From: Platerodrilus igneus
Taxonomy: Eukaryota > Arthropoda > Insecta > Coleoptera > Lycidae
Direction of reading: 5' to 3'
Length of the DNA stretch: 64,000 nt
NCBI GenBank assembly: GCA_036346225.1
Contig: JARFIW010001365.1
Coordinates: 244,001-308,000, forward strand
Position 1 is the first letter of the stretch. Each line of letters opens with the position of its first letter. Below, piece by piece: positions 2,797 to 43,940 of the stretch. The notes beneath the pieces are model-generated. The model had not been told where the DNA came from and ran no database searches. It saw only the letters and a program-made list of their open reading frames with translations. A program made the position numbers and the translations under genes.

Positions 2797-2859
2797 TATG
2801 TATTTTCCAACAATTTAGCATTGTGCATGTAATTATGTTAAAACCAGAAAAAAATTTTA

Positions 2860-3130
2860 AGTCAGTTTACAGATTCGGATTCTACATAAAATTCTAGACT
2901 AACAAGATGTATTGCATGTATAAAAAATTTATAAGAACGCTCAAAAACCACTACAGGTAAGAAATCTTAAAAATGGGGTAGCTCCCTGGGGGATGGCGCA
3001 ATCTAAAAAATTCCTAGAAATTCGGGTAGCTGAGAAAAATCTAATATTAATTGATACCAAACAAGGTAGGTTTATCTCGAAAGATGCATTGGCTAGACAA
3101 AGAAAACTATTTGGTTTAGATGTGGGAGCA
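2860..3130 (+). repeat. Polinton terminal-type segment, also in the foldback at 32.6-34.2 kb
   Basis: This stretch, including TTATAAGAACGCTCA, a GTAAGAAATCTTAAAA run and GAAAAATCTAATATTAATTG, aligns closely with 33420-33680 and 33750-34020 on the same strand and with 32755-32990 inverted. A GGGAGCAAATGTGGG motif repeats just after it (about 3183-3223). Its position beside a Polinton integrase suggests it is the terminal repeat of that element. Confidence 0.75.
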
Positions 3131-3250
3131 AATGAGGGATCCCTCCTCCTCATTTCCTCCTTATGGGGATTTACATGTAAATGTGGGAGCAAATGTGGGT
3201 TTTGGGAGCAAATGTGGCGGCAGGATTGTCAATTATACTCTACTTGCACA

Positions 3251-5459: not shown

Positions 5460-6205
5460 ATGTCTAATACAGACAAAAACAAGTGTACAGCAATTAAAAG
5501 TTATTTAACACGATTCTATAATTACTTTCATTCAGTTAAAAATGCAGATTATGATTTGAATGAATTACAAGACCGTTTAAATAAAGCTGAAGCACTTTTA
5601 GATGAATTTAATACGGTTCAATAACTTATTGAAAATGCTGATGAACAATGCGAATCTAATTATGCTACTTTACATGCGCCACAGAAAGAAAAGTAAAAAA
5701 TGATTTCTTTAAAATTACGGCAACTGTCAAAAAATTCATTTGTGATAAAAACGGTAGTGTTAAAGCTGGTTCTCTAACGAGCAACATTAACAGTGACCAC
5801 AGTGGTCAGAACTTCGCCAATTTTCGTTTACCGAAATTAGTTCTGCCTTGACGGGTCTTTTGATCAATGGTTATTTTTTAGAGACAGTTTTGTGTCAATC
5901 ATTCATTGAAATACTAGCATTTCTAACATCGCTAAATATCATTATTTGCGCCTTCAACTGATCGGAATTGCTGCTGATACAATCAAATCTTTAGTGGTCT
6001 CAAACGCTAATTATTTGATAGCTTGGAAATTAATTCAAGAAAGGTTTGAAAACAAACAGTTGTTGGTCACTAATCACATTAACGCACTTTTTAATTTACC
6101 TTCCCTCACAAAAGAATCACAGGAAGCCTTGCGACTACTATTAGATGGCATGCAATAACACCTACGCGCTTTAAGGGCTCTCGAACGTCCACTGAACACT
6201 GGGAT
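5460..6205 (+). pseudogene. BEL gag, N-terminal and DUF1759 region
   Basis: An ATG at 5460 opens a 54-codon helical N-terminus that stops at 5622. The same frame continues, with further stops, into a region typical of the DUF1759 gag domain of BEL elements (FDQWLFF near 5855 and an open stretch at 5946-6158 with AWKLIQERF and NHINALFNLP). A frameshift near 6190 passes into the next frame, where gag continues with LITNKFD. Gag packages the element RNA. The multiple stops make it a pseudogene. Confidence 0.85.
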
Positions 6206-8155
6206 GATTTGATTATATTCTTAATTACTAACAAATTTGACAACGTTACGCGACGCGCGTGGGAAGCGGAAAACCAAACTGGTGACCTACCAAAGTTACA
6301 AAACTTAATTGATTTTTTGAAAGAAAGATGTCGAATTCTTGAATCTTTACACGTCAATATTGACACGAAACCGCAACAGTCGGTTACACCACAACGAACG
6401 AACAAAGCTTCTAAATCGTTTGTTACAACTTCTACAAAAACATGTTCTTTGTGTTCTAACAATCACATAATTTACTATTGCACAGAATTTACAAAACTCG
6501 ATGGCTCGAACAAATTAAACACTGCTAAACGTTTACGGCTATGCATCAACTGTTTAGGTGCTAATCACTTAACAAATAATTGCAAGTCTACAAGGTGTCG
6601 TAAATGTGAAAAATTCCACCACACTCTTTTATGTTTTAAAAACAACAATGCAAATGTGCAGTCTACTTTTGCACAAAACACTTCTCAGAACCTTACTACT
6701 GTTGCTGCAAATGAGCAACTCATTCCTACAACGTCAGCTGCACCTGTTAGTCTGACCGTTAATACTTCTGCGAAGTTACAAGTTTTACTTTCCACTGCAG
6801 TTGTCACAATTCTTGACGCTTTTGGCCATCCACACCACTGCAGAGTTCTTTTAGACGACGCAAGCCAATCGAACTTTATATCTCAACGCCTTTGTGACAT
6901 TTTACAATTGCCAAAACGCAACACAAAGATTTCCATTTTTGGAATTAACCAATTGAATCATGATGTCAGTCACATTGTCACAGTCACAAGCAAATCTAAG
7001 GTAAACAATTTTGGAACAACACTTAATTGTTTAGTCTTGCCAAACATTACTGGTCATTTTCCAAGCACTTACATTCGCAACACGTCATTAGACATACCCA
7101 AATATATCAAACTTTCTGACTCAAATTTTGGTCACCCTGCTCCAGTATATTTATTAATTGGTGCAGACACTTTTTGGGATTTATTAGGCATTGGGAAAAT
7201 TAAACTTGGCGACAATGGTCCCATTTTACAAAAAAGTAAACTTGGTTGGCTCATTTCGGGCAAAATTTATACACAAAATACTATTTCCAATACGTTACAT
7301 TGTTATCACTCTTCTAATGCTACTTTAGAAGCACAATTGTCTAAATTTTGGTTACTTGAAGAATATCCAAAAATAAAATTCTTTTCTGACGAAGAAAACT
7401 TTTGTGAAACACACTTCAAACAAAACACATCTCTTAATGATGATGGTCATTTTATTGTAAAAATTCCAATTAAGGAATCTACACCTGAATTAGGAGATTC
7501 TAAAACTACAGCTACTCAGCGCTTTCTTAAACTAGAACTTTTGTTTTTACTTGAGAAAAACCCAGGTTTAAAACAACAATATCATGATTTTATCCATGAG
7601 TACATACAATTAAACCACATGTCACTTTGCAGTGATCAACAAGACAACTCTGGATTCTTTCTACCACATCATTGCGTTCTTAAAGACACTTCCACTACTA
7701 CCAAATTACGGGTCGTATTTAATGGCTCTGCTAAATCTTTCTCTGGATACTCGCTAAACGATTTAATGTTGGTCGGTCCTAATATACAGGACAACTTATT
7801 TGATATTCTACTTAGGTTTAGAAAACGCAACAGTGTTTTAAGCGGCGATATTGCAAAAATGTACCGACAAGTATTTATTCATGAGGAACAACGCCACTTA
7901 CAAAAGATTTTATGGCGTTTTGACTCAAACAGCGAAATTCTTGCTTACAACCTTAACACTGTTACTAACGGTACGGCTTCTGCGTCATCTTTAGCCATCA
8001 GAGCTCTTCATGAGGTTGCACATAGACACATACATGAAAATCCCAAAATTGCTTCAATTATACTTCACGATTTTTATGTAGACGATCTTCTCACTGCAGA
8101 AGATACTGTTGAAGAGGTCAAAAAAATAAAAACTGAAATTACTACTTTTCTATAA
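6206..8155 (+). pseudogene. BEL polyprotein: gag zinc knuckles, protease, reverse transcriptase
   Basis: This is the longest open piece of the element (about 648 codons). Residues about 79-141 carry three Cys/His clusters (CSLCSNNHIIYYC, CINCLGANHLTNNC, CRKCEKFHHTLLC), the nucleic-acid-binding end of gag. Near residue 216 is the aspartic protease motif VLLDDASQSNFIS, where the usual D-T/S-G/A is read as D-D-A. From about residue 500 comes the reverse transcriptase with LRVVFNGSAK, the SGDIAKMYRQV motif and the catalytic YVDDLL. The frame ends in TAA at 8153-8155 in the middle of the polymerase domain; the same frame goes on downstream, so this is a nonsense mutation. Confidence 0.93.
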
Positions 8156-8836
8156 TCCTACGGATTTCCTCTTCGCAAATTTGTTTCAAATGACAAATCT
8201 ATACAATACGATTGTGAGTCAAACATTGTACACTTAGGTGACACAGGACAAAGTAAAACCTTAGGATTATTTTAGAACTCTCACAATGATATATTGCAAT
8301 TTGCAATTAATGTTCCACAACACACATCCAAGGCAACCAAACGACAAATTTTGTCATACATTTCGATGATTTTTGACCCGCTAGGTCTCCTCTCACCTGT
8401 AATAATTACTGCCAAAATTATCTTACAGCAGCTTTAAAAATTAAAAGTAACATGGGACGAAACCGTTCCTGCAAACTTATACTTGCAATGGCAAAATTAT
8501 CGCTCTCAACTGGAGCAATTAAACACATTAAACATTCCAAGACAGGTGACATGTTCTAATCCCGTTTCTGTTCAGTATCATTGCTTTTGTGATGCTTCAG
8601 AGGCAGCCTATGGCGCTTGTATTTTTATACGTTGCATGGATGTTCTTGGAAACACTACTTCAAATCTTTGTAGCGCAAAAACAAGGGTTGCACCTTTAAA
8701 ACTCATTACAGTTGCTAGACTGGAATTATGTGGTGCTCTTCTTTCAGCTGAACTTTCAAACAAGGTAGTTACGTCTAGTAATATACACTTTGAAAGGGTC
8801 TTTTATTGGTGTGATTCTACCATAGTTATCTCTTGA
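8156..8836 (+). pseudogene. BEL polyprotein: rest of RT and RNase H (Pao type)
   Basis: It continues in the same frame as the preceding piece, with two more in-frame stops (about 8273 and 8435), then 118 open codons from 8483. Recognisable blocks are FDPLGLLSP, the RNase H region with CDASEAAYGACIF and the later CDSTIVIS, all typical of Pao-type polyproteins. The TGA at 8834-8836 falls where this family has Trp (ISW), so it is probably a TGG-to-TGA change. RNase H would remove the RNA strand during reverse transcription. Confidence 0.88.
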
Positions 8837-9530
8837 ATAAATACATCTCCACATTTATTAAAAACTTTCGTTGCAAACAGTTTCACAAATACAGAACCTA
8901 ACAAATACTGATTCCTGGAGGTACATCAACACTTTACACAATCCTGCTGATTTACTGTCAAGAGGAATTGATCCTAAAACTTTACTGAATTCGGAACTTT
9001 GGTTTCATGGTCCGAATTGGCTTATTTGGCCTGAAAATAATTGGCCTGTTTACTCTTATCAATTAAAAAATTCTGAAATTCCGGAAACTCGTCCTACAAC
9101 TTCAGTACTTATATCCACTTCCTGAGATTTTGATCTCATAAATCGATTTTCTTCATTAACTAATCTATAACGAGTTTTTGCTTGTATTCTTACATTTAAA
9201 AACAATTCTTTAAAACCTAAGAACATGCGTACTACTGGTCCGCTAACAACACAGGAATTAGCTGATTCTTTAAACACACTTGTTAAAATTGTACAAATAC
9301 AAACATTTCCTGACGATTACAATAAATTACTTAAAACTGGTCAAGTGAATAACAAAAGCAAACTTTTAAGCTTAAACCCATTTCTTGATCCACTTACAAA
9401 AATTATTAGAGTCGGTGGTCGTTTGGAAAACTCCAACTTTAATTTTCTTAAAAAACACCCAGCGCTTTTGCCTGCAAAACATTATTTTTCTACCTTAATT
9501 GCTCAATATGAACATTTAATGAACATTTAA
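8837..9530 (+). pseudogene. BEL polyprotein: linker and integrase zinc-binding region
   Basis: After a frameshift near 8875 the reading continues in the next frame, with blocks LHNPADLLSRG and LWFHGPNWL that are standard in BEL elements. It has stops at 9123-9125 and about 9168. It then runs 9225-9530 with LNPFLDPLTKIIRVGGRL and HPALLPAKH, the H2C2 zinc-binding region ahead of the integrase core. A second frameshift near 9535 returns to the original frame. Confidence 0.85.
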
Positions 9531-10618
9531 GACTGTTACCCTGGTCCACAGGCCTTATTGCCTCAATTATAGAAAGATTCTGGCCTATATCTGGTCGAAA
9601 CTTGGTGAAAAAGGTCGTGCATGACTGTGTACGATGCTTTCGTTTTAACATAAAACCTGAACAACACATAATGGGAAATCTTCCAAATTCCCGTACAACG
9701 CCTATGCGTCCATTTTATTACTCCGGTGTCGACTACGCTGGCCCATTTTCCCTTCGTGACAGAAAGGGTAGAAACTTCAAAACAACTAAGGCTTACGTGT
9801 CTTTGTTTGTCTGCTTTACCACAAAGGCTATTCATTTGGATGTCGTAAGTGACTTTACAACTGAAGGTTTTTTAGCTGCTTTGCGCCGTTTTATGGCTAG
9901 ACGTGGGAAATGTGTTGAAATATTCTCTGACAATAGTACAACCTTTGTGGGGGCAAATAATGAAATTAAAAAATTTGTTGACATCCGCTACACTAAAATT
10001 TCTAATGATCTCTCTGACGATGGAGTTCAGTGGAAATTTACTTCACCTCGTACGCCACATGTCGGTGGTTTATGGGAGTCAGGCGTGAAATCCGTGAAAC
10101 ACCATTTAAAGCGTGTGGTGGGTAACGCGTCAATTACATTTGAAGAATTTTGTTCGGTTCTTTGCCAAATAGAGGCTTGCCTTAATTCTAAGCCCATTTA
10201 TCCTTTAACACAAGATCCTAATGATACTAATCCTCTTACTCCTGGTCACTTTTTGATCGGCGAACCTTTGTGCACAATACCAGATCCGAATTTGTTGCAC
10301 TTAAATGAAAAACGATTATCGAGATTTCAGCGAATGCAACAGCTTACACGACACTTTTGATCCAGGTGGTCAAAAGAACATATCTCGAATTTACAAACAC
10401 GCGTTTGGAAAGAAAATTTTCCGCAACTATTAAAACCTGGTACACTAGTCATCATTAAAGAAGACGGTCTTCCACCCCTCAAATGGCGGCTTGGAAGAAT
10501 CATTGAAGTTCATTACGGACTTGATGGAATAATTCGTAGTGCAACTATCAAAACCACTTCGGGCAACTTTAAACGTCCAGTAGTGAAACTTTGTGTTCTA
10601 CCTAATCAAATCTCATAA
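9531..10618 (+). pseudogene. BEL integrase core and DUF5641 tail
   Basis: Blocks FWPISGRNLV (about 9580) and HDCVRCFRFN lead into the integrase core at 9602-10360. Catalytic residues are visible as D in YSGVDYAGPF, D in IFSDNSTTFVGAN and E in GLWESGVKS. A TGA at 10358-10360 replaces Trp; the same frame then reads on through the C-terminal DUF5641 region (RWSKEHISNLQ, LKWRLGRI) to TAA at 10616-10618. The integrase would insert cDNA with a 5-bp stagger, matching the GATAC duplication seen. Confidence 0.92.
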
Positions 10619-19443: not shown

Positions 19444-20718
19444 CATCACTCAATAAGTCCGTAGGATAACTAAGAAAAACACATTTTTTTGGCGAAATTC
19501 GATTTTATTCATCAACATACATTCCTTCAAGAGTGATACAATCAGTCCAACGCCGTTCTAGCATTTCGATACCTTTTTTGTAAAACAATTCGTCTTTGGC
19601 CTCAAAATAAGCTTCAGTTTCAGCGATCACTTCTTCATCCGAGCCAAATTTTTTTCCGACGAGCATTTTTTTCAGGTCTGCGAACAGGTAGTAGTCGCTG
19701 GGGGCCAAATCTGGAGAATACGGTGGGTGCGGAAGGAATTCGAAGCCCAATTGGTGCAATTTGGCCATCGTTGCGATCGACTTGTGACACGGTGCATTGT
19801 CTTGGTGAAAGAGAATTTTTTCTTCTTCATGTGGCCGTTTTTGGCAATTTCTTCCTTCAAACGCACTAATAATGCCATGTAGTATTCGCTGTTGATTCTT
19901 CTTCCTTTCTCAAGATAGTTGATGTACAAAATTCCGTGCGCATCCCAAAATACAGACGCCAAAACCTTACCAGCCGACTTTTGCGATTTTGGTCGCTTTG
20001 GACGTGGTTCTCCGGCTGCAGTCCACTCAGCTGACTGCCGATTAGACTCTGGAGTGTGGTGGTGGATCCATGTTTCATCCATTGTCACATACCGACGCAA
20101 AAGTCCTTTTATTCCGGTTGAACAGCTCCAAACAGCTCTCAGAATCATCGACACGTTGTTGTTTTGGTCCACTGTGAGCAAACGCGGCACCCACTTTGAG
20201 AACAGCTTTCTCATGGACAAATGTTCATGCAAAATAGTGTGCACACTGCCTTCTGATATCTTCAAGGTGTCAGCTATCTCACGCAATTTTACTTTTCTGA
20301 TTTCCAAAACGATTCGGTGGACTTTTGATGTTTTCCGGTGTAACCACCTCAATTTGCCTTCCAGAGCGTTCAGCATCGTCAGTGTCTGTACGGCCACGTT
20401 TAAAATCAGCAAACCACTTCTCCACCGTTTGCCTCGATGGAGCAGAGCCCGGATAACACTTATCAAGCCATGCTTTGGCTGCGATGGTATTTTACCCTCA
20501 AAAGCAATGATAAATCAACACGCGAAATTGCTTGGAATTCATTTTTTTGAAAAACTCAAAAGTATCGTCACTTGAACCTCTGTAACTTGTAAACTAATCG
20601 TCGGATTGTCATGAAATTTTGACAGATATCTTTTTAAGGTTAGTACTTCCTACAAATCATATGGATTATTACATAGCAACGCCATCTATGTATCATCCTA
20701 CGGACTTATTGAGTGATG
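19444..20718 (-). mobile_element. mariner-family DNA transposon inside RTE copy A
   Basis: Terminal inverted repeats of at least 22 bp (CATCACTCAATAAGTCCGTA at 19444 and its complement ending at 20718) flank a transposase on the minus strand. The right flank is TA and the left flank CA, which fits the mariner TA duplication with one change. Total length of 1275 bp is normal for mariner. The transposase is frameshifted, so the copy is non-autonomous. Confidence 0.92.
19505..20542 (-). pseudogene. mariner transposase, frameshifted
   Basis: The ATG at 20542 starts MNSKQFRVLIYH, followed by helix-turn-helix blocks (APSRQTVEKWFADFKRG in one frame, LREIADTLKISEGSVHTILH in another). The catalytic core shows the first Asp in VTMDETWIHHHTPES, a WDAHGILYI block, the second Asp in a shifted frame (HQDNAPCH, about 19800) and the third in YSPDLAPSDYYLF, the D,D34D arrangement of mariners. 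At least two frame changes occur: one in the N-terminal third and one in an A-rich run near 19815. Length and motifs otherwise fit a typical transposase of about 345 residues. Confidence 0.92.
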
Positions 20719-20720
20719 TA

Positions 20721-22820
20721 GTAGTTAAAATGAAGTGTAAACTAAAATTCAAAAAATTGAGAAAGGTTAAAAGAGAGGGATGGGATCTAGGTAAGCTTAA
20801 TGATAGTAGGGTAAAAGAGGAATATAAACAAGTATTAGATAATAAGAGCAAAGAGATAGCTGTAGGAGGGAACGTAGAAAATAGATGGAAAAAAATAAAA
20901 CTGACTGTATATGATACAGCAACACAGACTATAGGTAAGAAAAAAATAGAAGCGAGAAAACCGTGAGAGAATAGATGAAAGCTTAAACCTTTCAGAGAAG
21001 TGGATAGTGAAAGTAAGCAAAAATATAATACAGTTAGAAATAAGATAGTACATGAGTGTAGAAAAGCTAGAAATAAATGGATGGAGGAGAATTGTAAGGG
21101 AATACAAGATGATTTGAGAGTAGGTAAGACAGACAGGGCTTACAGGGTAGTTAAAAAGTTTTTTGGGGAAGATAGGAAAAAATATAATGGTATTAGAGAC
21201 GAGAATAATGAGCTTCTAATAAATAAAGTTGAGGTAGCAAATAGATGGAAAAGATATTTAGAAGATTTATATAAGGGAGACGATATGGATGAGTTAGGGA
21301 ACGACCAAGAAAAGGATGTAGAAATAGGGTTCTCAATATTAAGAGAGGAATTTGATAGAGCTTTTTGGAATCTTAAACTAAATAAAGCGCCAGGGATAGA
21401 CGATATTCCCGCAGAATTAATAAAATATGCAAGTCAGAAAACTTCAGACAGATTATATGAACTAGTAAAAGTAATATATGACACAGGTGAGGTTCCAATA
21501 GATTTCGAAAAAAATATTATTATCCCAATCCCAGAAAAGTCAGGAGCTGATAGGTGTGAGAATTTTAGAACGGTTAGTTTGACTTCTCATGCTTCCAAAA
21601 TACTAACAATAATAATTAAAAATAGAGTAGAAGCTTTGACTGAGAATTATTTAGGCGAAGACCAATATGGTTTTTGTAAAGACAGAGGGACTAGAGAACC
21701 AATACTAATGATTAGGGTAATTATCGAAAAAAGGTTACAAAAGAATAAAAAGACTCATTTTGCGTTTGTAGATTTAGAAAAAGCATTTGATAGCGTTAAT
21801 TGGATTGTTATGTTCAGGGTTTTGCGAAAAATAGAAATCTCTCATAGGGATAGAAAAATTATTTACAGTCTATATAAAAACCAAAGCGTAGTAATAAGAT
21901 TTGATGAAATAGGAAAGGAAGCTAAGATTAGAAATGGTGTTAGACAGGGTTGTATACTGTCTCCCTTGATTTTTAATGTTTATATTGAGGAAGCTTTAAA
22001 CTTAGCTAGAGAGAGAAAAGAGATAGGTATTAGTGTACAGGGACAGAAAATAGACATGTTACGTTTTGCAGATGATATAGCCATTATAGCAGAGTCTAGA
22101 AAAGAGTTAGGAGAGTTTTTAAATATTTTAGATGAGATACTACAGAGTAACTATAGTATGAGAATTAGTTCAGAAAAGACAAAGATAATGAAAAGTGAGT
22201 TACAGCCTAGTTCTAAACCAAAACTAAAAATAGGTAATACCGAGTTAGAGGAGGTAGATGAATTTTGCTATTTAGGTAGTATAATTATAAAGGATGGACG
22301 TAGTAGAACGGATATAGTAGCTAGAATAGCTCAAGCTAGAAAAATGTTTTTAAAAAAGAAAAACTTACTAATAGCTAATAGTATTAGTTTAGATAATAGA
22401 AAAAGTTTCTTAAAGTCGTACGTATGGAGCGTTCTACTATACGGTAGTGAGACTTGGACAATTGAAGAGGTAGATAAAAAAAAGATAGAAGCTTTTGAAA
22501 CTTGGTGTTTTAGAAGAATGATAAAGATTAGTTGGACAGATAGAGTAACAAACGAGAAAGTTTATAGAAGGATAGCTGAGGGTCCCTGTATGTGGAAACA
22601 ATTAAAGGTCAGGAGAGATAGAATGATAGGGCACCAGTTAAGACATGAGAGACTATTTAGTAAAGTCTTAGGTTATATACTACCAATTAAAAGTAGGAAG
22701 GCCTAGACAAAGCTATATTAGTCAAATTATTAGAGATTTAGGTTGTGAAGGGTATATAGACCTTTTTAGACTAGCTCAGAATAGAAAAGAATTTAGAGTT
22801 GCATCAAACCGACTTTAAGT
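20721..22820 (+). pseudogene. RTE copy A reverse transcriptase domain
   Basis: Coding resumes after the mariner with a basic linker. A long open stretch (about 21000-22706, 568 codons) holds the RT: LNKAPGIDDIPAELIK, FAFVDLEKAFDSVNW, RNGVRQGCILSPLIFN and the catalytic FADD in MLRFADDIAIIAES. The C-terminal block with LLYGSETWTIEEVDKKK, FETWCFRRM and ISWTDRVTNEKVYRRI is typical of RTE LINEs. A frameshift near 22680 moves the final 35 residues (GRPRQSYISQIIRDLGCEG) to another frame, ending at about 22818. It would copy element RNA at the nicked target. Confidence 0.9.
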
Positions 22821-32288: not shown

Positions 32289-32608
32289 AATTATTATTAC
32301 GTGACAATTAGAGTACAGTGTGTGACTTTTTGTACATAAACCTATAAACAAGTATATAAAAATTAATGGGTCTGTGTGAGTGACTAGGCTGAATACACCA
32401 AACCACTGAAGGTGAGTGTTGCTTATGTTATCTTGTATTATATTCACGCCATAAGCAGTTAGAGCCCCTCAAATAAAATCACTACGAGCCGCCACTGGTT
32501 AAAGTATAAACCTCTAGTGATTTTCAAATTTATGTGAATATAACACGCAATAAATTAATGAGCTGTAAATACTACCCTACACTAGTAGGTGGTTTTGGCC
32601 GGTTCTGG

Positions 32609-32725
32609 CTCCTCCTCCTCCTCCTCCTCCTCTTCCTCACTCCTCCTCTTCGCTCCTCCTCACTCCCCTCCTCCTCCTCACTCATCCTCCTCCTCACTCC
32701 TCCTCACTCCTCCTCACTCATCCCA
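32609..32725 (-). repeat. CTCCTC minisatellite, left arm of the foldback
   Basis: Imperfect CTCCTCCTC/CTCACTCCT units immediately inside the left terminus. The reverse counterpart is at 34045-34175. The short Ser/Leu-rich ORFs across it are artefacts. Confidence 0.92.
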
Positions 32726-33153
32726 ATTTTAAGATTTTTTTATAGCCAACATTCTGAACCAAATAGTTTTCTTCGACTAGCCATATTCATCTTTCGAGAT
32801 AAACCTATATTGTTCGGTATCAATTAATATTAGATTTTTCTCAGCTATCTGAATTTTTAGGAATTTTTCAGATAGCATCATCCCCCAGAGAGCTACCCTC
32901 ATTTTAAGATTTCTTACCTGTTGCTATTTCTGAGCGTTCTTATAAATTTTTTTAGTCATGCAATACATTAAATTAGTCTACAATTTTACGCAGAATTCGA
33001 ATGTGCAAACAGATTTAAAATAGGACCACGCCCTGCAGAGTTATACCACTTTAAAGCTCTCAAACCTCTAAATTTTGCTCTTTGCGCTATAAGCAAAACT
33101 AACAAATAGTTTTCTTTGTCTAACCAATGCATCTTTTGAGATAAACCTATTTT

Positions 33154-33223
33154 GTTTTTTAGAATATTCAAAACCATAACTGTTTAAAATTAAAATGTTA
33201 TGGTTTTGAATATTCTAAAAAAC
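33154..33223. repeat. Perfect 27-bp hairpin at the foldback centre
   Basis: The arm 33154-33180 (starting GTTTTTTAGAATATTC) and its exact reverse complement at 33197-33223 are separated by 16 bp. It marks the symmetry centre of the left-hand part of the element. Confidence 0.95.
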
Positions 33224-33389
33224 AGTGCATCACCGTTTGAAAAATGGTTTTAAATATTAAATTCTTATGGCTTTATAAAGGACTCATTTCTAAAATCTCC
33301 ACGGTTTTTGATTTTTGGTTTGGTTTAAGCATATGTCATAGACGAGCAAAAATTTTTAATGTGATTTGGGGGCTTTAAAGTGCAACTTT

Positions 33390-34020
33390 ACAGAGCGTGG
33401 TCCTATTTTAAATCTGTTTGCAGATTCGGGTTGTGCGTAAAATTGTAGACTAATTTAATGTATCGCATGTAAAAAAATTTATAAGAACGCTCAGAAATAG
33501 CAACAGGTAAGAAATCTTAAAATGAGGGTAGCTCTCGGGGGATGATGCTATCTGAAAAATCTAAAGAGATTTGGGTAGCAGAGAAAATTCTAATATTGAT
33601 TGATACCAAACAAGATAGGTTCATCTCAAAAGATGCATTAGTTAGACAAAGATAACTATTTGTTAGTTTTGCTTATAGAGCAAAGAGCAAAATTTAGAGG
33701 TTTGAGAGCTTTAAAGGAGTATAACTCTGCAGGGCGTGGTCCTATTTTAAATCTGTTTGCAGATTCGAATTCTGCGTAAAATTGTAGACTAATTTAATGT
33801 ATTGCATGACTAAAAAAATTTATAAGAACGCTCAGAAATAGCAACAGGTAAGAAATCTTAAAATGAAGGTAGCTCTCTGGTGGATGATGCTATCTGAAGA
33901 ATTCCTAAAAATTCAGATAGCTGAGAAAAATCTAATATTAATTGATACCGAACAATATAGGTTTATCTCGAAAGATGAATATGGCTAGTCGAAGAAAACT
34001 ATTTGGTTCAGAATGTTGGC
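33390..34020 (+). repeat. Two tandem subrepeats of about 333 bp in the foldback right half
   Basis: The unit starting near CGTGGTCCTATTTTAAATCT occurs at about 33398 and again at about 33731, then runs through the same GCTCAGAAATAGCAACAGGT block. The left arm has only one copy (inverted). It is the same unit seen at 2860-3130. Confidence 0.88.
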
Positions 34021-34044
34021 TATAAAAAAATCTTAAAATTGGGG

Positions 34045-34175
34045 CGAGTGAGGAGGAGTGAAGAGGAGCGAGCAGGAGTGAGGAGGAGGAGTGAGGAGGA
34101 GGAGTGAGGAGGAGTGAGGAGGAGGAGGAGTGAGGAGGAAAAGTGAGGAGGAGCAGTGAGGAGGAGGAGGAGGTG
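34045..34175 (+). repeat. GAGGAGTGAG minisatellite, right arm of the foldback
   Basis: Runs of GAGGAG and GAGTGAGGAG, the inverted counterpart of 32609-32725. Short ORFs on either strand are low-complexity artefacts. Confidence 0.92.
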
Positions 34176-34206
34176 CCAGAACCGGCCGAAACCACCTACT
34201 TACACT

Positions 34207-40178: not shown

Positions 40179-40601
40179 GTAAGTATTAAAATCAATAAAC
40201 GACATTATAAATATTAAGTTAAAATTTTTTTATGTGGGTATGTTCTTCTATAGTTTATTACCAGTTTTCAGATTCGGAATCCTTGACCAAAAAGTATATT
40301 ACAGTAATTTAATGACGACTAGATGCACTTTATCCCACTACGGTACCCAAATTTCCAAAATAGCTATGATCTTATACAGGTACTTGTAAGGCCGTTTTTA
40401 ATTGAAAGATGTTGCTAATTTGCTTCAGCAAGTTTGGAATCTAAAGACATTTTAAATAGCTCGCCTAAAATTTACGTCTATTAAGCTGTCTGAGCCAAAT
40501 TATCCGAACACATCAAAATATATATAGGAATTATTTGCTAATTATTTGCTTTTTTGCCGATAAAACCAATTGTTTTACTATATCTGTAAAAAAGCTACAA
40601 G

Positions 40602-40881
40602 TGGCTAGATAGCTTAATATTAAGCTATCTAGCAAACTAAAAAAAATACCTACACAAAATAAAATAAAAAATTAACAATATGTAAATTATTTGCTATTTT
40701 ATTGCTACCATTTGCAAAAGAAAAAAAATCAAATTTTCAAATAATAAGATGAATATCAATATCTACAAGAGTAAAAGACTTTAAAGAAGTTAATTACAGG
40801 CATGACTAAAAGATACCTACGTTTTATGAATTATTTACTCTTAAAATATGCATCTCCCAAAATATCAGAACACATCAAAAC

Positions 40882-40927
<46 letters not shown>

Positions 40928-42830
40928 GGAATTATTTACTAATTATTTGCTTTTTTTGCTGATAAAACCAATTTTTTTACTATATCTGTAAAAAAGTTAC
41001 AAGTGGCTAGATAGCTTATTATTAAGCTATCTAGCCAACTAAAAAAAATACCTACACAAAATAAAATAAGAAAATTAACAATATATAAATTATTTGCTAT
41101 TTTTTTGCTACCATTAGCAAAAGAAAAAAATCAAATTTTTAAATAATAAGATAAATATCAATATCTACAAGAGTAAAGTACATTAGAGAAATTAATTGCT
41201 AAGGTGACTAAAAAATACCTACGTTTAATGAATTATTTACTCTTAAAATATGCAACTCCCAAATTTTCAGAACATATCAAAAAATATATAGGAATTTTTT
41301 GCTAATTATTTGCTTTTTTTGCTGATAAAACCAATTGTTTTGCTATATCTGTAAAAAAGTTACAAGTGGCTAGATAGCTTATTATTAAGCTATCTAGCCA
41401 ACTAAAAAAAATACCTACACAAAATAAAATAAAAAATTAACAATATGTAAATTATTTGCTATTTTTTGCTACCATTTGTAAAAGAAAAAAATCAAATTTT
41501 CAAATAATAAAATAAATATCAATATCTACAAGAGTCAAGTACATTAAAGAAATTAATTGCTGGCATGACTAAAAAATACCTATGTTTAATGAATTATTTA
41601 CTCTTAAAGTATGCAACTCCCAAATTATCAGAACACATCAAAATATATATAGGAATTATTTGCTAATTATTTTCTTATTTTTGCTGATAAAACCAATTTT
41701 TTGGTATATTTGTAAAAAGTTACAAGTGGTTAAATAGCTTAATATTAAGCTATCTAGCCAACTGAAAAAAATACCTACACAAAATAAAATAAAGAAATTA
41801 ACAATATATAAATTATTTGCTATCAAATTTTCAAATAATAAGATAAATATCAATATCTACAGGAGTAAAGTACATTAAAGAAATTAATTACAGGCATGAC
41901 TAAAAGATACCTACGTTTTATAAATTATTTACTCTTAAACATGCAACTCCCAAATTATCAAAACACATCAAAATACATATAGGAATTATTTGCTAATTAT
42001 TTTCTTTTTTTTTGCTGATAAAACCAATTTTTTTGCTATATCTGTAAAAAAGTTACAAGTGGCTAGATCGCTTAATATTAAGCTATCTAGCCAACTAAAA
42101 AAAATACCTACACAAAATAAAATAAAAAAATTAACAATATATAAATTATTTGCTATTTTTTTGCTACCATTTGCAAAAGAATAAATCAGATTTTCAAACA
42201 ATAAAATAAATATCGACATCTACAAGAGTAAAGTACATTAAAGTAATTAATTGCTGACACAACTAAAGCATTTACAATGTTTATGAATTATTTGCTCTTT
42301 AGATATGCAACTCCCGAACTTTTTGCTCGCCAAATTAGATGTTCAAACGATAATAATAATATAAGTTGGCCTGAGACTACAAGAGTAAAGTGCCTTTAAA
42401 AAATTAATTGCTTCTATCATGATTTCATAATCATGTAGCTAAATTTATTTGCTCTTAAATTATATATATCCTGAATTTTTTGCTCACGAAATTAATATAA
42501 AAAACGACAAAAGGCCATTATTGTCGTTTGAACATTTAATTTCGCGAGCAAAAAATTTGGTGTTGCATATTTTAAGAGTAAATAATTCATAAAACGTAGA
42601 TATCTTTTAGTCATGCCTGCAATTAATTTCTTTAATGTACTTTACTCTTGTAGATATTGATATTTATTTTATTATTTGAAAATTTGATTTTTTTTCTTTT
42701 GCAAATGGTAGCAACAAAATAGCAAATAATTTACATATTGTTAATTTTTTATTTTATTTTGTGTAGGTATTTTTTTTAGTTGGCTAGACAGCTTAATATT
42801 AAGCTATCTAGCCACTTGTAACTTTTTTAC
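40602..42830. repeat. Near-perfect 34-bp palindrome, once per subrepeat
   Basis: Each unit contains TGGCTAGATAGCTTAAT followed by its exact complement, near 40602, 41003, 41368, 41728, 42060 and 42780 (the last in the inverted unit). The palindrome is better kept than the sequence around it. Confidence 0.88.
40884..40922 (+). repeat. TA microsatellite inside a subrepeat
   Basis: A (TA)n run of about 38 bp that lengthens the second foldback subrepeat relative to the others. Confidence 0.95.
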
Positions 42831-42953
42831 AGATATAGCAAAACAATTAGTTTTATCAGCAAAAAAAAGCATATAATTAGCAAATAATTCCTATATATAT
42901 TTTGATGTGTTCTGATAATTTGGCTCAGACAGCTTAATAGACCTCTAAAATTT

Positions 42954-43940
42954 TGTGTTTACGAAATAAAACTTTACAGTACTAAAATTATGCAAGTAAT
43001 ATACAGGAAAATAATCTATGTTTGTGCTAGATTTCAATCTTCTATAGCATACTAATCAATAAACGAATATGTTACAAGATTTGTGAGCTTCTTAAACAGT
43101 GTTTTATTTAGTTTAAGTCAATTGATCCACCATGAAGAAGTATTGACCATTGTAAAAAAACTGGGGTCGAAACTTTTAAGGGATTGTAACGATTTAACAA
43201 GTCTGGAACAATAAAAATGAAGATTTTATGCCTATATGCGTGCGCACGTTCGTACACGTGTTAGAACGGCCATTGTTGTCTGCTCCAACTAAACGACGGC
43301 GAAAACAATTGTTATCTATTAATACAACTTCTACCAGTTAATACAATACCAAAAACCAAATCAGGGGTAGCATACATCTAAATAATTTCTTGCTCGTTAA
43401 TAACTAAACATTTTAGTAAACAGTCATCGCGTTCAACTGACTAATCACTTAAATATTGGAAATTAAATTGATTTAGTTAGGTCCACCCGACTGTCTGATT
43501 ACATATTACAGTGTCGGTCTCAGAAACCGTCCCATGTCCAGAGACGAACTAAAAGTTCACACACGTTTTCACTTAAAGTATCTATTTGTACTATAATTCT
43601 TAATAATACATAAAAGAATTGTACATTTTATTAAGATTTTGGCAAATTCAGTAAATATCCTGACGCGGAGAGGGAATTCATAATCCCGCAAATAATTAAA
43701 GCTAAACGTGGTTAACTTAATTCCAGAGGAATCAATTAATGAATACTACATATTAAAGATATCCAAAGACAAAACACAAAATCTGGTTCAAATGCACATT
43801 TTGACCTTAACCAGAACAGATAACGACGAAACCAAAAATACAATAATTTAAACAAAATACTTAACACTCCTAAATCCAGGCAAAGCAATGTATTTCACAT
43901 CAAGTCAAGCATTAATTACTGAATAAAAGTAATGCAGTAT
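42954..43940. other. Nothing recognised
   Basis: No coding, RNA or repeat signal I can support. Confidence 0.4.

Follow-up and report, generated by a model that had tools for sequence, protein, structure and literature searches.

A gene-free foldback element with Polinton-type ends in Platerodrilus igneus and its possible copy-back origin

Polintons (Mavericks) are thought to replicate by protein-primed strand displacement, and direct evidence that they do so outside the chromosome is, to our knowledge, scarce. Copy-back and snap-back defective viral genomes, in which one genome end is duplicated in inverted orientation at a turn point of short homology and which depend on a helper, have been described mostly for RNA viruses, with adenovirus cases too. 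Foldback elements and foldback MITEs such as Galileo and FB consist of long inverted arms with internal repeats and little between them; PMC3573991 places Galileo with the P elements. For Mavericks/Polintons, PMC8097293 names a protein-primed PolB, gives intact vertebrate elements a length of 12.7–24.6 kb with terminal inverted repeats (TIRs) of 46–1,447 bp, and describes a terminal motif of (AGT)2//(ACT)2 or (AG)3//(CT)3.

Here we describe a foldback of 1,617 bp (32584–34200) with termini AGTAGG and CCTACT and no genes, found in a window of 64,000 nucleotides (contig C1293, 244001–308000) of the 2.71-Gb genome of Platerodrilus igneus. Its family resembles the Polintons/Mavericks in a retroviral-type integrase, a 6-bp target-site duplication (TSD), AG...CT ends starting AGTAG and long TIRs. 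The foldback differs from them in being only 1.6 kb long, gene-free and palindromic, and its AGTAGG is near to, but different from, the Maverick terminal motif given in PMC8097293. The arm architecture recalls Galileo and FB, whereas the 6-bp TSD and Polinton-type ends do not, and no sister copies were seen at the 40 places scored of 1,175 candidates. The single inverted-duplicated end, the short-homology turn point and a probable dependence on a helper recall copy-back genomes, except that here the molecule sits in a chromosome as an integrated transposon copy. A fold-back junction within an intact TSD would record single-stranded synthesis and subsequent integration, and a survey of such junctions could therefore test extrachromosomal Polinton replication from genome sequence; copy-back would also give foldback transposons an origin other than deletion.

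Ends, arms and integrase-bearing neighbours

The features of the foldback, in window coordinates, are as follows.

32578–32583, no strand: left TSD, TACACT, identical to 34201–34206
32584–32626, plus: left TIR, AGTAGGTGGTTTTGGCC..., 43 nt, 95% complementary to 34158–34200
32584–33189, plus: left arm, 606 bp, with 388 bp of the right arm missing near its inner end
32609–32725, plus: left CT-rich subterminal simple repeat, limits approximate
32753–33021, minus: ~340-bp unit of the left arm, the stretch common to 2854–3120 (85%)
33176–33201, no strand: fold-back junction, with ATAAC at 33176–33180, a 16-nt loop at 33181–33196 and GTTAT at 33197–33201
33190–34200, minus: right arm, 1,011 bp; relatives run collinear with it (C301 at 93.5%, the integrase-bearing copy on C1356 at 87%)
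33405–33662, plus: ~340-bp unit of the right arm, inner (second) copy
33744–34012, plus: ~340-bp unit of the right arm, outer copy
34042–34175, plus: right GA-rich subterminal simple repeat, limits approximate
34158–34200, minus: right TIR, ending CCTACT, 95% complementary to the left 43 nt
34201–34206, no strand: right TSD, TACACT, identical to 32578–32583

A first-pass annotation of this DNA had proposed a small non-autonomous foldback with a 6-bp duplication and AG...CT Polinton-type termini. We confirmed the duplication as perfect, a 6/6 flank match being expected by chance at about 4e-4 at the base composition here, and the termini as AGTAGG...CCTACT; the judgement of non-autonomy also stands. 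Polinton membership is indicated by the 6-bp TSD, the AG...CT termini and a terminal region in common with an integrase-bearing element. The arms are inverted as described, but only one of them is about 600 bp long (606 versus 1,011 bp), and 'almost identical' was slightly too strong a phrase: past the CT-rich tract, 446 of 459 columns are identical (97.2%), and an inner stretch of 484 bp is 95% complementary. By eye, the arm alignment places the deletion point of the left arm at about 33153–33157. The left arm carries one copy of the ~340-bp unit and the 54-bp start of a second, and the right arm carries two. The proposal of recent movement did not hold up, with arms that differ by 2.8% and a nearest relative arm, among those read, that is 93.5% identical to the right arm (C301); because the arms differ at 13 of 459 columns, the event that produced the foldback was probably not very recent. 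Elsewhere in the window, at 40467–42954, a tandem array of ~330–370-bp repeats lies beside inverted copies (up to 94%) in a style like that of the foldback arms, and sequence comparison found no match between this array and the foldback.

Near the start of the window lies the right part of an integrase-bearing element.

620–1549, plus: integrase, Pfam rve, E 6.6e-9
1678–2178, plus: P4, 167 aa, adjoining the integrase, 92% over 160 aa in the C1356 copy
2854–3244, plus: right TIR end, ending CTCTACT, with the opposite end at C1293:239239, outside the window
3245–3250, no strand: TSD, TGCACA, the same six bases preceding the left end

Arm sequence had been reported beside this integrase at 2860–3130, and we recovered it at 2854–3120, 85% identical to the arm. 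A genome search with 3060–3250 located the left end of the element at C1293:239239, with TIRs identical over 187 bp; both ends read AGTAGAGTAT... and TGCACA stands on both flanks. By both termini and the perfect TSD the element is complete, at 8,006 bp (C1293:239239–247244; besides the left end, the part inside the window was read, the left 4.76 kb lying outside it), and it has the same kind of end as the foldback. Its length is outside the 12.7–24.6 kb range of intact vertebrate Mavericks, and it is probably not intact because it is shorter than that range. The integrase has 2,475 homologues at E ≤1e-10 among 4,177 candidates, and a chromodomain was also noted in 22 of the 120 homologues listed. 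In their outermost ~140 bp the foldback (AGTAGGTGG, CT-rich) and this element (AGTAGAGTAT) are unlike, so this very integrase is only a candidate for having moved the foldback.

A second integrase-bearing copy, on C1356, consists of the integrase end, P4, a 4.16-kb insertion, three units and the terminus AGTAGATGGTTATTGGCAAAACCAC, and is broken to the left of base 5852 of L051. The copy is 87% identical to the right arm of the foldback over 819 bp, agrees with the C301 palindrome described below at 24 of the first 25 terminal bases and, over 1,183 columns of subterminal DNA, matches that palindrome at 88%. CTACT is the terminal sequence of both integrase-bearing copies. Three further open reading frames in the window (6095–10360, 19672–20514 and 20979–22706) are transposon-like, and we take them to be of BEL/Pao, mariner and LINE type, respectively.

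Family members and large palindromes

A search of the genome with the arm, in which 40 of 4,822 candidates were scored, gave at least 141 matches, and family counts from this search are lower bounds. Both ends were read for 18 members. AGTAG/CTACT termini with a perfect 6-bp TSD are present in 16 of these, one has a TSD matching at 5/6 and one has none; the first-pass annotation had asked whether other copies carry 6-bp duplications, and no duplication of a different length was seen in these 18. Eight of them came from the arm search (the window element and those on C1294, C301, C1441, C727, C1483, C1 and C952) and comprise six perfect TSDs, the 5/6 case (C1294) and C952, which lacks one because its inverted repeat extends past the termini. 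The other ten, pairs from the TIR search with both ends listed, all have perfect 6-bp TSDs (10/10). For the remaining loci from the arm search, the sequence read covers one end or other parts of the element; on C1054 and C985, a motif search of the fetched pieces found no terminus. TIRs of 2.4 kb occur in the family. The inverted repeat that runs past the termini on C952 (L019/L020) and a 2.2-kb inverted repeat without a recognisable terminus on C985 (L017/L018) may be inverted duplications, nested or chromosomal, or may stem from the assembly. On C405, a PolB-like fragment (L035:546–1163; PF03175, E 1.6e-5, 24.4 bits and thus below the cut-off of 25.8) sits just outside the left terminus (1361) of a family member, which has possibly inserted in a Polinton polymerase gene.

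The large palindromic relatives, together with the fold-back junction, go beyond what the first-pass annotation had noticed. Members on C1294, C301, C1 and C920 are palindromes through their own centres, so inverted dimers of a single end are a recurrent feature of the family. Some of the larger relatives are palindromes of 13–16 kb with a gene for a protein of ~785 aa; that on C301 is 16 kb long and that on C1294 has arms of ~7.3 kb, not counting a Ty3/gypsy insertion, both being described, like the other large elements, from separate pieces. The insertion on C1294 (L022:2940 to L023:2234) is Ty3/gypsy-like, has 420-bp LTRs (98%) and lies inside one arm of the ~15-kb palindrome. Members on C141 and C1087 have the TIR of the window integrase element at 94–96% identity, and close to each end they contain DNA of the ~785-aa-gene family.

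The fold-back junction

Both arms of the foldback reach one parental point and turn there at the 5-bp inverted repeat ATAAC/GTTAT. Five sequences from four relatives (C301 in both arms, C952, C1356 and C1327) run collinear with the right arm through ...CCATAAC-ATTTTAATTTTAAACA-GTTAT, with small loop differences on C952 and C1327. Past the repeat, the foldback turns into the reverse complement of the preceding sequence, whereas the relatives carry on. In a genome scan for the junction, with 40 places scored of 1,175 candidates, the foldback itself matches throughout and is the one place where the junction is crossed, which does not bear out the MITE-like family that had been suggested. The other 39 matches begin at 33176 (38 places) or 33177 (one), and the junction therefore seems private to the window copy. 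Secondary alignments on the other strand at some scored places reflect the palindrome; six of these, on the minus strand, pass the turn point at 77–79% identity, overlap places already counted and are taken as weak AT-rich extensions.

Random joins within the arm of one relative gave an overlap of at least 5 bp in 0.8% of cases. Four relatives with unique loops (L032, L033, L039 and L040) each have, among the ten longest matches shown, one collinear and one novel junction between arm and loop, the novel junctions having overlaps of 0 (with one odd base), 2, 4 (followed by an 8-bp stutter) and 2 bp, respectively; L041, examined for a novel junction, gave no clear case. These four junctions fit long-loop copy-back and off-centre deletion in a larger palindrome equally.

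Origin of the palindromes

Our preferred reading, to which we give a probability of roughly 0.57, is that the foldback, palindromic and non-autonomous, belongs to a Polinton-type family, arose as a self-primed copy-back product and was integrated in trans by a Polinton-type integrase. Protein-primed strand-displacement replication of a longer relative would supply a single strand. A strand begun at a terminus would stop about 1 kb in, and its 3′ end, GTTAT, would pair with ATAAC 16 nt upstream and be extended back to its own terminus, a step that we infer here over deletion. Such a product would carry the same terminus twice and so keep what the integrase needs, and an integrase acting in trans would insert it with a 6-bp duplication; the left arm would afterwards have lost 388 bp, or would never have had them. 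As copy-back predicts, both ends of the foldback correspond to a single end of the parent, with the arms meeting at one turn point, and unbroken sequence across that point is also present in the integrase-bearing copy on C1356.

The main rival, which we consider possible although unlikely, is loss of the middle of a longer element, palindromic or with long TIRs, that left two arms almost adjoining; slippage at the hairpin base between the two GTTAT copies, which are direct repeats in a palindrome, would yield the same junction. That the nearest arm read belongs to the 16-kb palindrome on C301, that 2.4-kb TIRs exist, that the left arm is 388 bp short and that the four unique-loop relatives fit off-centre deletions all speak for such a loss, and an off-centre loss in a larger palindrome could, less easily, give the window junction too. 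However, deletion needs two breakpoints that lie, in arm coordinates, no more than ~20 bp apart, it still requires a fold-back origin for the larger palindromes, and the unbroken sequence occurs also in the C1356 copy, which is not known as a palindrome.

Fold-back synthesis could instead have taken place in the chromosome, mending a host double-strand break in an integrated copy, with the palindrome moving later. The repeat past the termini on C952 and the 2.2-kb repeat without a terminus on C985 are what a chromosomal inverted duplication would be expected to look like, but the foldback and six other long-TIR or palindromic elements lie inside their own TSDs (six perfect, one at 5/6) and were therefore inserted as units, and we regard this origin as improbable. 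We hold it very improbable that the foldback belongs to another DNA-transposon superfamily with 6-bp duplications that captured Polinton-like repeat units. The outer ~140 bp of the foldback are unlike those of the window integrase element, relatives carry the unrelated ~785-aa gene, and tblastn at E 1e-5 of the pieces of six relatives found no integrase except a 25% match in L023, within the inserted Ty3/gypsy element. This explanation is already weakened by the CTACT ends of both integrase-bearing copies, by the C301-type terminus of the C1356 copy and by the members on C141 and C1087, which join the TIR of the window integrase element to DNA of the ~785-aa-gene family.

A wider extension of copy-back synthesis, offered tentatively and with some doubt, is that Polinton-type elements of this lineage replicate as free linear strand-displacement DNA and leave integrated copy-back genomes, some of them the 13–16-kb palindromes, and that at least one palindrome acquired the ~785-aa gene and turned into a high-copy parasite of the integrase-bearing element. 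If so, chromosomes would preserve a fossil record of a DNA virus-like element's defective interfering genomes.

The ~785-aa protein family was seen at L021:2861–4825 (minus strand) and L022:920–1354. DNA of its gene gave 3,372 candidates in this genome, and the 40 scored are all at least 96% identical. At the protein level, 27 homologues (P0001–P0027) were found at E ≤1 among 7,993 scored candidates; five are named by organism, namely Cacopsylla, Cinara and Laodelphax (Hemiptera), Schistocerca, and one filed under the sharpshooter symbiont Baumannia. Its fold has a likeness to rolling-circle initiators that is weak and within noise, together with possible OB folds, and its sequence carries the motifs D-x-DITQDF, R-x-K-x-YNKF and GITRxExTIYN.
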